A stretch of 64,000 bases of DNA, from positions 178,320,995 through 178,384,994 of the forward strand of contig OY992536.1 of the NCBI GenBank assembly GCA_963921195.1. The letters are read 5' to 3'. Position 1 is the first letter of the stretch. The number at the start of each line of letters is the position of its first letter. Positions 8,986-55,136 of this stretch are shown piece after piece. This stretch comes from Pegoplata infirma. Its lineage: Eukaryota > Arthropoda > Insecta > Diptera > Anthomyiidae. The notes under the pieces were generated by a model. The model worked only from the letters and a program-made list of their open reading frames with translations, searched no databases and was not told the DNA's origin. The position numbers and the translations under genes are program-made.

Positions 8986-8990
8986 GAACA

Positions 8991-9933
8991 TATCGAGGGC
9001 CTATATTCAAAACCCTCTATCTTAAAAAACACAACTTTTCAGGAGAGCCAAAAAACTGTTTATTTCGCGTATTGTAAGAGTAATTAAAATTCGATATTCT
9101 ACAATATTTTTTTAAATCAACTACTGAATCTCACATATAATTAGTTTTTAAAATTTCGCACTATTGGGGATATTATAAAAGATAGAGGGTTTTGTTTCTC
9201 AAAAATATTAAGTATATGAATGAAAATGATCAGATAGAGGGTTTTGCATTTTAATAATAATGAATTATTATGATTTCATTTACGACATCGGTAAATTTTT
9301 AACGTGATTTATTAATGATAACGGCTTATAAAGAATTCCGAAGTCGCGGTTTTGGTCCACAGGTGCGGATTTTTGAGACAAAAAATATTTTTTTACCGAA
9401 TTCATCTTAAAAGATGACAAACTGTTGAGTATGTTATGTAAAAAATAGTCAAAAATTAAAAACGCGATTTTGGTCCACAGATGCTGATCAGCATCTCGAT
9501 TTTTAAGATTAAAATTTTTGTTTCATAATGTACACAAGATATAAAAATTTTGAGCCATATTTTTTAAAAAAGTTAAACAAGAATTTTGAGAAAAAAAAAG
9601 CATCAGTGGACCAAAATATTAATTCGAGAATTTTGTTGACAAATTCATGTTCAGCATGCAAAAATTAGTATTAAAACATGTAATTAATAATGAAATTATT
9701 AAAAAAAAATATTTATAAATTAATTATTTGAAAAGATAGAGGGTTTTGCATTCAGAAAAATTATTTGTGTAAGAGATAGAGAAAACCAAAAATGCAAATA
9801 AAATAGCAAAAAAAAATATTTTTGTTCTGAATTTTGCACCATAGATGAGGGCCGTTTTACTGAATATTTTGCCATCAAAAAGTCATTTTCGTGAAAATGG
9901 AAGATAGAGGGTTTTGAATATAGGCCCTCGATA
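8991..9933 (+). mobile_element. Word-swap TIR element, copy 1 (word GATAGAGGGTTTTG)
   Basis: The ends are perfect 33-bp inverted repeats (8991-9023 and 9901-9933) beginning TATCGAGGGCCTATATTCAA. The private word GATAGAGGGTTTTG lies inside both TIRs and at 9181-9194, 9233-9246 and 9735-9748. Backbone blocks TTTTCAGGAGAGCC near 9037 and TTTTGCCATCAAAAA near 9876 are shared with copies 2 and 3, whose words differ. A second word, TTTTGGTCCAC, sits at 9350 and 9468 and inverted at 9606. There is no transposase. The TSD is unclear because the ends merge into TATA-rich flanks. Confidence 0.78.
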
Positions 9934-9959
9934 TATATATTGTTTATTGCAGTTTTTAT

Positions 9960-15240: not shown

Positions 15241-15242
15241 TA

Positions 15243-16114
15243 TATCGTTAAACTATATTCAATTTGAGCTTTCTAAAAAAACATAACTTTTCAGGAGAGC
15301 AAAAAAACCGTCGCATTCGCGTATTTTTAAACTTTTTGTCGGCCGATCTTTTACAATATTAATTAATAATTACTACTAAATTTTATACGTGCTTTGTTTG
15401 TAAAAATTCGTATTATTCGCTGAGTTACAGCAGATAGCTCAACCTTTTTTATTTGAAATTAATCAACCTTAGCAGATAGCTCATTAAATATAGACTTTAA
15501 AGCTTTATAACTTTTTAACGGATTATGTTAAAAATGTGAACTTGGTACCATATTTCTTAGTTTTTAAAGCCCTTCCGTTACAAGTGTTAAAAAAAATACT
15601 TTTTAATTTTTTTTTAAATCATCGATTTTTTCGCTCTTTATCGCCATTATTTGGAACCTTCATGAAGCTTGCGAAAAATGTCATAACACTTGTGTTTGCT
15701 GTACAATCGAATAGACAAATAAAATATGCAAAAATTTCAACCGATTTTGCTCCGCATCGAAATATGGGTCAAAAACCGCGTTTTTAACCGCGGAATGGAG
15801 TTGAAACTTTCAAAAAAAAAAAACTGCCATTATTTTTATTGATGGAAACACCATATAAAAAGTGATAATATAAAAAAATTTTAATTTAAAAGTTTACCCT
15901 AGTAAACTAAACTGTAGATAGCTCAAATTTTTATTTATAAAAAAACATGGTTTCACATAGCTCATGCTATTTTTGGAATAAAATAGTCTTAAAATAATTT
16001 TTTTGTTCTGAAATTAATACCATAGATGACACTTATGCCAGCGAACATTTTGCCATCAAAAACTCATTTTCGTCAACCGAGCAGATAGCTCAAATTGAAT
16101 ATAGTTCCACGATA
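15243..16114 (+). mobile_element. Word-swap TIR element, copy 2 (word GCAGATAGCTCAA)
   Basis: The left end TATCGTTAAACTATATTCAA and the complement of the right end, TATCGTGGAACTATATTCAA, match copy 1. The private word is GCAGATAGCTCAA: inverted near 15261-15274 and forward at 15430-15442, 15472-15483, 15914-15927, about 15955-15965 (degenerate) and 16081-16093. TTTTCAGGAGAGC and TTTTGCCATCAAAAACTCAT are shared backbone. Non-coding. It directly abuts a tandem array on its right. Confidence 0.75.
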
Positions 16115-16118
16115 TATA

Positions 16119-42581: not shown

Positions 42582-43249
42582 ATATTATGAGTTTTTTTGG
42601 AAATTCTATAATCTTCAGGCTATCAAACTTTTTCTCTATCACTTCAGAGGAATGATTGTAGAATCGTGTCGCAATGATAGCAGTTGAATGTTTTATTTAA
42701 TAAAATAATGACCGTTCTGAAATACGCCTAGATTGTTTAGGGGATTTTGGGAGCCATCAAGTCGGAACAATATTCACAAACCGATTATTATTGCATTCTA
42801 ATAATGACTAAAACCAAGATGAATCAAACCTACGACTTTATGCTATAAATATGTGACTGTCACTTCACAGAATGGAGATTTAAACAATTTTTGGAAGTGG
42901 AAAGCTGACATGAACTGAAAGTAGGTACGCCGAGGGGTATTATCAAAAAATTTATGCAGAAGCTATTTGAAGGAAACAAAAACTATTTTCTCTCTTTCAT
43001 TGTTATTCGGTTTAAATAGATGGAATTTCAAAATGCTGTCATTCAATTTGGAAACAATAGACCTGGTAGAAATTGGCGCAAGGTTTCAGGTAAAATTTGT
43101 GAAATGAAGAACGTTGAACGAAAATTCGGTTGACACAACATTACGATTATCAGAACCGTGTAGTGGCTTTAAAACCCGAAATTAAGTTGTATCAACTGCA
43201 ATGTGGGTGTGGCAACTGGACAACTGATTTTCAACTCTTCAAAAAATTA
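42582..43249. other. No recognisable feature
   Basis: Moderately AT-rich DNA between a hAT element and a TIR element; nothing recognisable on either strand. Confidence 0.45.
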
Positions 43250-44184
43250 TATCGTGAACCTATATTCAAAATATGCCAACTCAAATTTGACGGAAATGAG
43301 TTTCCGATGGCAAATAGCTCCCCTATGTAATACCTATCTGCCATAAAAATTTCAGAGCAAAAAAATAATTTGTTGTCGTTTTACATCCATTTTTGTTATT
43401 CTGCTAACTCAAAGTACATATTTTTTTGGTGGAAATAAATGCCAACTCCCATTGTAAATTTCCAAAAATTTTTCAAAAAATTTTTTTAAAAAAATTAGAC
43501 CACATATATTATTGCATTTGCCATGCTAAACACGAATCTTGTAAAGATTTTGATATCTAATGACTGGTTCTCGAGATATTGCCATTTTGAAAATATCGGT
43601 AAATAGTGTTTGCAAAAAAAAAAAATGCTTATATTTATGTTACTTTCAAACTATTTATCAGATTGAAACATTATGAATGGGGCAAATAAAGTCAATGATA
43701 TAAGCTTTCAAAATAGCTAGTTTGGAGTGACCCTATTGCAATACAGCGTGAGTTACAGAGTGCCAAAGTTGACCACCCTGAGATTAAAAGGCTTTCGGAG
43801 CTAGTAACTTTTAAAAATATGCAAAGATTTTTAATTTTTGGTTCAGTTTTTGCAATTACCGTACTAAGGATAACAAAAACCAAAAAAAAAATTTTTTTAA
43901 AAATTTTTCCAAAAAAAAATTATTTTTATTTTCCGACAAAATATGCCAACTCTAAAAAAATATTTGTTTTTTGATATAGTAATAAATGCCATCTCAAAAA
44001 AATACGCAAACCAGTGCAAAATATGAAATTTTTTGCATCGGTATAAATTATTTAGAATATTTAAACCATTTTATGGAAGGTACATTGTTTATTTTTGCAA
44101 TAATATGCGAAATAACTAGTTTTTTAGCTCTCCTGAACAGTAAGCTTTTTCGAGTTGGCATTTATTGAATATAGTTCGACGATA
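43250..44184 (-). mobile_element. Word-swap TIR element, copy 3 (word GAGTTGGCATATTT)
   Basis: Ends TATCGTGAACCTATATTCAA and the complement TATCGTCGAACTATATTCAA match copies 1 and 2; the backbone runs in the opposite direction. The private word, seen on the plus strand as AAATATGCCAACTC or AAATGCCAACTC, stands at 43271-43282, 43437-43447, 43941-43952 and, inverted, 44152-44163. Degenerate versions stand at 43401-43410 and 43984-43995. TTTGCCATCGGAAACTCATT (minus strand) and GTTCAGGAGAGC are shared backbone. No transposase. Confidence 0.75.
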
Positions 44185-45400
44185 TGCTAGTATTTACAGT
44201 TGTGACCCTTTTTTTCAATGTGAAGTTTATGTGTTTATAAGATATTAACAGTCTTAGTAAAAAAAGTTAGTTTACCAAAACCACTGTATTTTTGGCCATA
44301 AGCTTTTATATTGCAGTTACTGCTGTTGCTTTTGTAATGCGTGCCGTTATGGTTTATTAAATGCGTTTTGAAAGTGCATTTCCATGTTTGTCCAAGAGAT
44401 TGATGAGAAAATTAGATTTATTCATTGCTGTGTTAGTTGTCGTAAACAATTACTTTTACAAATTTGTACTTAGCACAAGTAAACCGGTATCTTAACACCA
44501 AAACACCACCAGGATTATAGGCAGTTTTGTGCTGTTGTGTATTAGAGGAATTAGAAGAAGCCACCACTGCAACGATTGAATTTAACTTTACTACGTTGCA
44601 CACAACAACGTTTGTTGCATGTGTTTTATCATCATTACATTCTATTCTCATCGTGATCATCTTTAATTTGAGTATTTTTTTTAAGAAAAATTCATTATAC
44701 AACCATTAATACCAACTAACTGATGCAGCTATATGGTTTTTTTTTTAACCATCAATACATGTAAATTAAAATTAACTTTATCGATAGTTGGATATTTTTT
44801 TTGGTTGTTAGAAAAAAACCTTTGTTGCATATTCTTTTGGGAGTTTGAAATGTAACCTAAGGTATATTGGATACAAAATTTCATGGGAAATTTTTGTCAT
44901 TAATCATACTCGGAAGTTTAAAAAATAATTTTGAGATAATCCATTGTAATTGTGATAAGTATTTGAGAAAATGGGATTTTTTTTGCTTACGGTTTACAGA
45001 ACTGTTTATCAAGTAATGAATAGAGTTGGGTAAAAAAAGCAGAGCTATTGAATTATATAATTTCTGTTATGAAATTTTTCAAAATCCTTTGCGTTAATCT
45101 ATTTGAATTTTTTTAGTATTTCCGTTAACGTTATTTGGAATAAGAGAACTTTATTTAAAATTTAATAATTCCATTTAAAAATTGGATATCAGGTGTAAAT
45201 TACTTTCAAAACCTATATAATGGTGTCCAGACATTATAAATACCTTATGTCATTTGACACCAACATACTTCGACAGCTAGACTGCGGACAGATCCCTAAA
45301 CACAATTTGACAAAACACTTCAATAGAACTTATTTACAGCACATCTCAAAATGAGATGTTTAAGCAATACACAGACGAGCAATTTAGGAGACTGAAAGTT
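44185..45400. other. Unique-looking non-coding DNA
   Basis: Contains CACCACCAGG and ACAACAACG patches near 44500-44610 and otherwise AT-rich sequence. Two short overlapping frames on opposite strands at 44433-44709 have no recognisable motif. The last 150 bases may be the decayed upstream part of LINE copy B. Confidence 0.4.
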
Positions 45401-53270: not shown

Positions 53271-53569
53271 TTTTAAACAAATTTTAAAAAATAGTAACAA
53301 TCGTTATCCTACGATCCTACTGGGCAAAAAATTTGTAGAATCGATAGAATTTTACACAAAAATATTTTAAAAAATCAAAGAGTACATACATTTTCAAAAA
53401 TGAGATTTAAATTTTAAAACTTGAAAATCGCCTTCTAGATCACTTTTAAGAATTTTTTTGGATTTTTTTTAAAAAGTATGGCCCTTACCCAATAAACACA
53501 AGAACGATATGATAGCGTAAACGTTATTACCTATATGATACTTAAATCGGCTACTTGAAAATTGGAATA

Positions 53570-55136
53570 TTTAAATTTGAAATATATATAAAAATGGATG
53601 TGTGTATGTATGTATGTATGTATGTATGTATGTATGTATGTATGTATGTATGTATGTATGTATGTATGTATGTATGTATGTATGTATGTATGTATGTATG
53701 TATGTATGTATGTATGTATGTATGTATGTATGTATGTATGTATGTATGTATGTATGTATGTATGTATGTATGTATGTATGTATGTATGTATGTATGTATG
53801 TATGTATGTATGTATGTATGTATGTATGTATGTATGTGTGTATGTATGTTCCGTATGGGCTCGAAAACGGCTGGACCGATCTTGATGAAATTTTCAGGGA
53901 ATATTCAGAATAGCCTGGGGAGTAACACTGTGCGGTCAGATTTGTGATTTTCTGTCGGTGGGCGGAGGGGCGTGGCAAAATCAAATTTTGACATTCCCCC
54001 ACTAATGACATCTATATATAAAGAAAACGGATTGACCGATTTTGGTGAAATTTAAACCAAAGATAGAACTAACCGAGTACTAACTATATTCCAAATTAGA
54101 GCGTGATCGAACAAATGGGCGTAAAATGCCATGCCTTTTTGTCCTTTGGTGGCGAGGGGTGGGCAAAACCAATTTTTTACATTGCACCACTAATGACAGC
54201 TATATATAAAAAACGGATGGACTGATTTTGATGAAATTTAAACCAACGATAGTACTAACCAAGTACTAACTATGCGCCCAATTAGAGCGTGATCGGACAA
54301 ATGAGCGTAAAATGCCATGCCCCTTTGTATTGAATTGAATGTCATTTCTGCATGCTCCGCAATAACGCGAAAACTGTTGATTCGATTTTAATCAAATTTT
54401 CAGCACTGATTGTGTTAACCGTAAAATGCCACGCTCTTTGTACTATACTGGACGTTGTCAGCCTGTATATCTGCCTGTTTTGAAATCACGCAAAAACGAA
54501 TAAGCCGAATCTGTCCCTACTGATAGAACTAACCGAGCGGGAACTGTTGGTCATATGTAGAGCGCGATTAGGCAAAAGGGTAAAAAATGTCACTCCCGTT
54601 TTTCATAAATAAAAAGTTATTTCCTCCTCTTTCGCAATCACACAAAAACTGATGTCAATGAAATTTGCAGCACAGATAGTACTAATCGAGGATGCAGCAT
54701 GGAACTTTAGACTATCACGATTCGATAAAAATGCGTAAAATGACACGCCCCTTTATACTATACTTACCGTTATGTCTGTCTGTTTTGATATCACGCAAAA
54801 ACCGCTGAACTGATTTTGTTGAGATTTCTCTATAGATTGTGCTAACCGAGGGTAGAACTAATCGAGGATGCAGCATGGAACTTTAGACTATCACGATTGG
54901 ATAAAAATGCGTTAAATGACACGCCTCTTTGTTCTATACTTACCGTTATGTCTGTCTGTTTTGAAATCACGCAAAAACCGCTGAACCGATTTTGCTGAGA
55001 TTTCTCTATAGATTGTTCTAACCGAGACTGGGCCCAGACCCGTGCTTTAATTTTGTCCGACACTATGTTTTAATTAAGATGCAATATAAAACGGTTTTTT
55101 TTATTAGGGCCAGCAACGCGGACCGGGTATAGCTAG
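53570..55136 (+). mobile_element. Helitron-like block: microsatellite plus tandem ACCGATTTT units
   Basis: It starts ATATATATAAAAATGGATGTG, continues with a (TATG)n run, then repeats units with AAACCGCTGAACCGATTTTG, GATGAAATTT and GTAAAATG(C/A)CA(T/C)GCC about every 150-190 bp. Two late units, from 54686 and 54864, are nearly identical. It ends GCGGACCGGGTATAGCTAG then T, a CTAG end as in many Helitrons. No Rep/helicase is present, and a 3' hairpin is not convincing, so the class is tentative. Confidence 0.5.
53602..53838. repeat. (TATG)n microsatellite
   Basis: About 59 uninterrupted TATG units, with one TGTG variant near the right edge. It produces open frames of Cys-Met-Tyr-Val on one strand and Tyr-Ile-His-Thr on the other in several phases; none is a gene. 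Confidence 0.97.

Follow-up and report, generated by a model that had tools for sequence, protein, structure and literature searches.

Three related families of MITE-like transposons in Pegoplata infirma have six word slots in common and differ in one half of the word

Repeated short sites inside the ends of P elements, hAT and CACTA transposons are the targets of the transposase. In the VANDAL transposons of Arabidopsis, related elements are described as carrying short cis motifs whose divergence parallels that of VANC, the protein that reads them (PMC5735166). Here, we describe three related transposon families of the fly Pegoplata infirma, which came to light in a window of 64,000 nucleotides (contig OY992536.1, positions 178,320,995 to 178,384,994) and which carry family-specific versions of a 12-nucleotide word at the same six slots. 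By analogy, VANDAL/VANC is the closest precedent for the evolutionary pattern, but here each motif is a single site with a fixed offset, and two of the six are located in the terminal inverted repeats. With P, hAT and CACTA elements our elements have the repeated short subterminal sites in common; the target duplications given for P (7-8 bp) and hAT (5-8 bp) do not fit the 4 bp found here. The Sola superfamily is described with 4-bp target duplications (PMC10741241), a likeness in duplication length alone.

In their general make-up the three elements resemble miniature inverted-repeat transposable elements (MITEs): they are short, have terminal inverted repeats and a target duplication, and occur in thousands of copies, and there is no transposase gene in the window. 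Inverted repeats, a duplication of fixed length and a high copy number without a transposase gene are the features by which MITEs and other non-autonomous DNA transposons are recognised. What sets the elements apart from MITEs is that three families have common ordered end blocks and six slots with different half-sites. With class consensus lengths of 871-943 bp they are also longer than the limit of 800 bp given for iMITEdb (PMC5199201).

A preliminary description of the window had reported three elements with a common layout, and we found all of them at the positions given there. The ends that it quoted include TAT/ATA from the 4-bp target duplication; the elements proper are 8994-9930 (copy 1), 15246-16111 (copy 2) and 43253-44181 (copy 3, with its backbone on the minus strand). 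The left-end pattern TATATTCAA-N{24,32}-TTCAGGAGAGC has three exact matches in the window, one per element, and none in 100 shuffles. The backbone blocks described as common to all three elements are so as an arrangement but not letter by letter, since copy 3 has one mismatch in TTTTCAGGAGAGC and three in TTTTGCCATCAAAAA. With up to three mismatches, TTTTCAGGAGAGC alone matches 19 times in the window (19.6 expected) and is not rarer than chance, and TTTTGCCATCAAAAA alone matches 31 times (17.9 expected), which is only a moderate departure from chance. Thus, it is the arrangement of the blocks, and not the single block, that provides the evidence.

The assembly that contains the window (1.38 Gb, 813 contigs) has 4849 exact matches to the left-end pattern (2491 forward, 2358 reverse) and none to its reversed control. 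Among 100 of these matches listed, 66 carry the word of class 3, 20 that of class 1 and 14 that of class 2, and no other word was present. Searches by similarity gave 2576 first-look candidates for class 1, the best 40 of which scored at 92-100% against copy 1, and 1545 for class 2, the best 40 scoring at 97-100%. The mean pairwise identity in our samples was 0.981 for class 1 (33 sequences, a value biased upward because they are mostly best matches to copy 1), 0.955 for class 2 (6 sequences) and 0.928 for class 3 (16 sequences); within the sample, class 3 is the most diverged and class 1 the least. The three elements are members of three related, high-copy MITE-like families. Outside this genome the left-end pattern gave one match in viral contigs, none in phages and 28 in bacterial or archaeal contigs (L062-L089), mostly Pelagibacteraceae and with other spacing, which we take as chance or a conserved gene.

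After alignment of the backbones the word slots coincide, including those in both terminal inverted repeats, as had been proposed. Six slots are found at common offsets across the classes, five of which agree to within 2 bp and the sixth to within 10 bp. Slots 1 and 6 are 32 from the ends in all three classes; measured from the left, slot 2 is at 190, 190 and 191 and slot 3 at 242, 232 and 234 in classes 1, 2 and 3, and measured from the right end, slot 4 is at 200, 199 and 198 and slot 5 at 160 throughout. Relative to the backbone, slot 1 reads on the minus strand and the other five on the plus strand. With at most one mismatch, all five matches to word 1 in the window are located inside copy 1 (0.19 expected) and six of the nine matches to word 2 inside copy 2 (2.32 expected). 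For word 3, all five matches are inside copy 3 (2.27 expected), a bare count that is not significant since five were reached in 9 of 100 shuffles.

Each word consists of two hexamers. The first is alike across the classes (AGWTRG), whereas the second is AGGGTT in class 1, CTCAAA in class 2 and CATWTW in class 3. The preliminary description had the words agreeing within a copy and differing between copies, which is true for this second half; in the first half, AGATAG is common to words 1 and 2, and AGTTGG is found in word 3 (AGATGG at slot 2 of class 3). At slot 5 the word is degenerate in every class, yet class-like. The identity of the whole 12-mer is 0.85 between slots within a class, compared to 0.51 at the same slot and 0.52 at different slots between classes, and with class labels shuffled within slots the observed value was reached in 0 of 5000 permutations. 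For the second half alone the identity is 0.75 within a class between slots and 0.23 between classes at the same slot, for the first half 0.94 and 0.80, respectively. What we see is not a swap of the whole word: only the second half-site is replaced, and the first half and the adjoining TTGAATATAG core are kept.

Slots that agree within a class are typical of concerted evolution, and gene conversion between slots, one of the two causes proposed in the preliminary description, might have homogenised the words within an element without any selection for a matching protein. The flanks of the slots make this quite unlikely, since the likeness stops at the word. Left-flank identity is 0.34 within a class, 0.40 at the same slot between classes and 0.28 at different slots between classes; for the right flank, which at slots 1 and 6 contains the shared TTGAATATAG core, the values are 0.41, 0.56 and 0.38. 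Within a class the flanks are thus barely more alike than those beside unrelated slots, which speaks against conversion of the usual length, and the order of the values is the opposite of that found for the words. Conversion would need tracts of approximately 12-15 bp at each of six places and would have to leave slot 5 degenerate in every class, unlike the outcome of long tracts. We therefore favour selection on complete sets over conversion, as the slots of a class are alike only as far as the word reaches.

The class sequences align at both ends, with 29-37 of every 50 columns in agreement over columns 850-950 as well as over the first 100. In columns 300-550 the identity of class 1 and class 3 drops to 11/37-15/48, and classes 1 and 2 hold 40-62% in a gapped AT-rich alignment. 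Aligned ends and a divergent middle would be as expected of functional ends. The middle of classes 1 and 3 is nearly unalignable, so these classes separated long ago, and it could be argued that they are simply distant relatives with conserved ends, in which the words drifted like everything else and have no special meaning. This appears very unlikely to us: independent change at six slots would not yield the same new half-site at most of them, and drift predicts more likeness at the same slot between classes than between slots within a class, which is true of the flanks but not of the words.

To follow the words across the genome we used 54 copies (32 of class 1, 6 of class 2 and 16 of class 3), namely the 52 complete ones of the first 60 loci and the three window copies, minus L001, which is a duplicate of copy 1; eight loci with an incomplete element or a misplaced end were set aside (L033, L034, L036, L040, L041, L042, L046 and L057). 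All 324 slot words (324/324) were closest to their own class, in a test in which slot 1 assigned the class, class 3 was the default and the references came from the same copies, and whose independent part is the 270 cells of slots 2-6. Replacement as a set, as initially suggested, is therefore found in the genome sample, but it concerns the second half and not the whole word. A search for a fourth word class (shared tip and core, A or C at word position 6), which covered half of the possible new words, gave 150 genome matches, and most of the 100 listed look like one of the three words after mutation or a shift, apart from a few odd cases. No further relatives beyond the known ends came out of a profile search that covered the window and the 60 loci.

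Two single observations were made in the genome. At C1:73645953-73645980 a class-2 word stands behind a tip reading as a class-3 left tip (TATCGTCGAACT), the sole such case among the 100 class-2 ends listed; it is possibly a mosaic, or a single mutation. Locus L003 (C3:65073223-65075153) contains two class-1 elements in opposite orientations with 48 bp between them, a large imperfect palindrome. One of the two is just 92% like copy 1; its words at slots 2, 3 and 6 are exact and its left repeat has the word too, and no slot-4 word was found in it at up to two mismatches.

The element tips are CG...CG. The inverted repeat of copy 1 comprises 34 nucleotides with 100% complementarity, and classes 2 and 3 have the same tip and core. 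The 4-bp target duplication is exact in 48 of 51 complete copies (46 ATAT, one ATTA, one ATAC) and imperfect in three; two of the 51, L035 and L037, have common flanks and are not independent. In a dedicated search, ten right ends had ATTA next to them, and for four of these both ends of the element are visible: L019, L090 and L091 have exact ATTA duplications and L098 has ATAT/ATTA. For the other six, no left end was present in the fetched stretch. The three exact ATTA insertions are each flanked by GC on either side (GC-ATTA...ATTA-GC), which hints at GCATTAGC as a second target context. A dispersed repeat with 382 genome matches served as empty-site comparison for the insertion at L011; most of the matches listed have 31 nucleotides where 35 are found around the insertion. 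This supports the 4-bp duplication but does not prove it, since the stretch is a TA run of variable length. The dispersed repeat, which contains GGACCCCATAAAGTATATATATTAATGATCC, is a recurrent insertion target, being found in the flanks of L011, L030 and L048.

Several known groups were compared with these ends and rejected. The P element has a 7-8-bp duplication, and four P-like loci in the genome lack the ends described here in the fetched stretches. Tc1/mariner elements duplicate the 2-bp TA, and the exact ATTA (three copies) and ATAC (one copy) are unexplained by TA alone. For piggyBac, a TTAA target and CC...GG ends are described, compared to CG...CG ends and an ATAT/ATTA/ATAC target here; seven piggyBac-like loci lack our ends in the fetched stretches. 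Ginger (TG...CA ends, 4-6-bp duplication) is ruled out by the CG...CG ends. The PHIS group (Harbinger, Pangu, Nuwa) has a group-specific target of mostly 3 bp, for instance ANT, CWG or TNA, which differs from a 4-bp duplication; since another paper gives 0-4 bp for PHIS overall, the length of the duplication alone is insufficient to exclude it.

From the comparison of the three classes, we propose that the classes are probably three transposon lineages with one ancestor, in which selection exchanged one half of the transposase-binding site as a set while the protein diverged. We infer that the transposase reads the word, and that the protein and its site changed in concert. The three families would be non-autonomous cut-and-paste DNA transposons which retained the end architecture of the ancestral element: the CG tip, the TTGAATATAG core and the six word slots with their intervening blocks. 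Each word would be a putative site for the DNA-binding domain of the transposase of that family, with five sites in one direction and slot 1 in the opposite one. The AGWTRG half and the core would be read alike in all three lineages and the other half by one lineage only. If the transposase of a lineage shifted its reading of the second half, only copies with the full matching set would be mobilised, and the set would change together through selection on successive source elements and not through long-tract copying between slots.

It might also be that the word is read by another protein encoded by the element, such as a VANC-like anti-silencing factor. VANC proteins are reported to recognise short motifs outside the coding parts of VANDAL elements, and the motifs differ among related families (PMC5735166). 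We regard this as unlikely: two of the six sites are located in the terminal inverted repeats, beside the core and at a fixed distance from the tips, which suits a transposase, and the VANC motifs are described there as tandem repeats, in contrast to the six single sites here. A host protein is a further candidate. AGATAG, which the consensus sequences of classes 1 and 2 have at slots 1-4 and 6, fits the consensus of GATA factors. That the words are host-factor sites is hardly credible, however, since class 3, the commonest class among the left-end matches listed, has AGTTGG, and since the class-specific part is the other half of the word; a private word for each transposon class would not be expected of a host factor.

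A functional site should vary less than its surroundings, and the suggestion that the word is a binding site agrees with this in two of the classes. In class 1 the variability is 0.0026 in word columns and 0.0079 in other end columns (71 of 5000 permutations), in class 3 0.0156 and 0.0391 (35 of 5000), which would fit a functional site. Several results weigh against our proposal. The difference is not significant in class 2, which has six copies (0.0093 and 0.0177; 850 of 5000). Neither a transposase nor an autonomous copy was found in any search made. The class-3 right end without the next backbone block has three genome matches, which are degenerate and look like worn MITE ends, and new sequence just inside slot 4 gave no match for class 1 and none for class 3, with patterns that need exact anchors of 20-25 bases and that diverged copies would escape. 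The 100 class-2 ends listed, which span approximately the first 124 Mb of the largest chromosome, form 39 end pairs, 10 of them longer than 1 kb. Nine of these ten were read whole and rejected as autonomous copies: they are full class-2 copies with inserted DNA, and their longest open stretch is 141 aa, with frames judged by length and without a Pfam scan. The tenth is L057, and the part seen looks like the other nine. The seven piggyBac-like and four P-like loci, fetched to about 1.5-2.5 kb past the domain so that remoter ends would escape, gave no profile match to our ends at E 10.

The window has no open frame of 150 aa. Inserted stretches in six of the eight set-aside loci contain no transposase-like frame; the longest open stretch is 170 aa and internally repetitive. 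The eleven fetched loci came from family searches of the genome with 120 matches for piggyBac (116 of 358 candidates scored) and 26 for P elements. They contain some core 10-mers with one mismatch, and L108 and L109 have one class-2 word with one mismatch each, which we take as chance. The piggyBac-like domains are located in open stretches of up to 711 aa (e.g. C3:158694268 and C1:246779287) and the P-element-like domains in open stretches of up to 1116 aa (e.g. C1:157127956 and C3:211971831), which suggests recent activity or host genes.

A more tentative idea is that the words form a modular address system. Lineage transposases might keep a reader for the common half-site and the core and swap or evolve a second reader, and one 6-bp address changed at six fixed sites would then give rise to separate families. 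If so, each wave of copies would have its own address and escape competition from older copies. Co-change of transposase and binding site is assumed in transposon speciation but has seldom been displayed so clearly as here, where one genome contains three classes in thousands of copies, all with the six slots in common and with one half-site that is kept next to another that is replaced. This makes it possible to test directly how the sites are recognised, whether cross-mobilisation occurs and in which order the changes came, and the other classes serve as internal controls. The process of co-change of motif and protein is already known; what is new is a fixed layout of six slots in which one half-site is kept and the other replaced. 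A literature search at the level of titles and abstracts found no description of the word-swap pattern in MITEs, and we do not claim that none exists. The features of the three window copies are listed in Table 1.

Table 1. Elements, target duplications and word slots of the three copies in the window
Feature	Positions	Strand	Basis
Copy 1, class-1 MITE-like element between target duplications	8994..9930	+	sequence; 34-nt inverted repeat, 100%; genome copies
Copy 1 left target duplication ATAT	8990..8993	.	sequence
Copy 1 right target duplication ATAT	9931..9934	.	sequence
Copy 1 slot 1 word AGATAGAGGGTT, in left inverted repeat	9011..9022	-	word search
Copy 1 slot 2 word, class 1	9180..9191	+	word search
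Copy 1 slot 3 word, class 1	9232..9243	+	word search
Copy 1 slot 4 word, class 1	9734..9745	+	word search
Copy 1 slot 5 degenerate word AGATAGAGAAAA, class 1	9774..9785	+	sequence, slot comparison
Copy 1 slot 6 word, class 1, in right inverted repeat	9902..9913	+	word search
Copy 2, class-2 MITE-like element	15246..16111	+	sequence; genome copies
Copy 2 left target duplication ATAT	15242..15245	.	sequence
Copy 2 right target duplication ATAT	16112..16115	.	sequence
Copy 2 slot 1 word AGAAAGCTCAAA, one change compared to class word	15265..15276	-	sequence, word search
Copy 2 slot 2 word, class 2	15432..15443	+	word search
Copy 2 slot 3 word, class 2	15474..15485	+	word search
Copy 2 slot 4 word, class 2	15916..15927	+	word search
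Copy 2 slot 5 degenerate word ACATAGCTCATG, class 2	15955..15966	+	slot comparison, word search
Copy 2 slot 6 word, class 2	16083..16094	+	word search
Copy 3, class-3 MITE-like element, backbone on minus strand	43253..44181	-	sequence, left-end pattern
Copy 3 target duplication ATAT, low end	43249..43252	.	sequence
Copy 3 target duplication ATAT, high end	44182..44185	.	sequence
Copy 3 slot 1 word AGTTGGCATTTA, class 3	44153..44164	+	word search
Copy 3 slot 2 word AGATGGCATTTA, class 3	43983..43994	-	word search
Copy 3 slot 3 word, class 3	43940..43951	-	word search
Copy 3 slot 4 word, class 3	43436..43447	-	word search
Copy 3 slot 5 degenerate word AGTTAGCAGAAT, class 3	43398..43409	-	sequence, slot comparison
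Copy 3 slot 6 word, class 3	43270..43281	-	word search

Apart from the three elements, the window contains a long tetranucleotide-like array at 53534-54011, which reads as THTYIHTY and VCMYVCMY repeats on its two strands and falls in the 2-kb block where the GC skew of the window is strongest (0.294).
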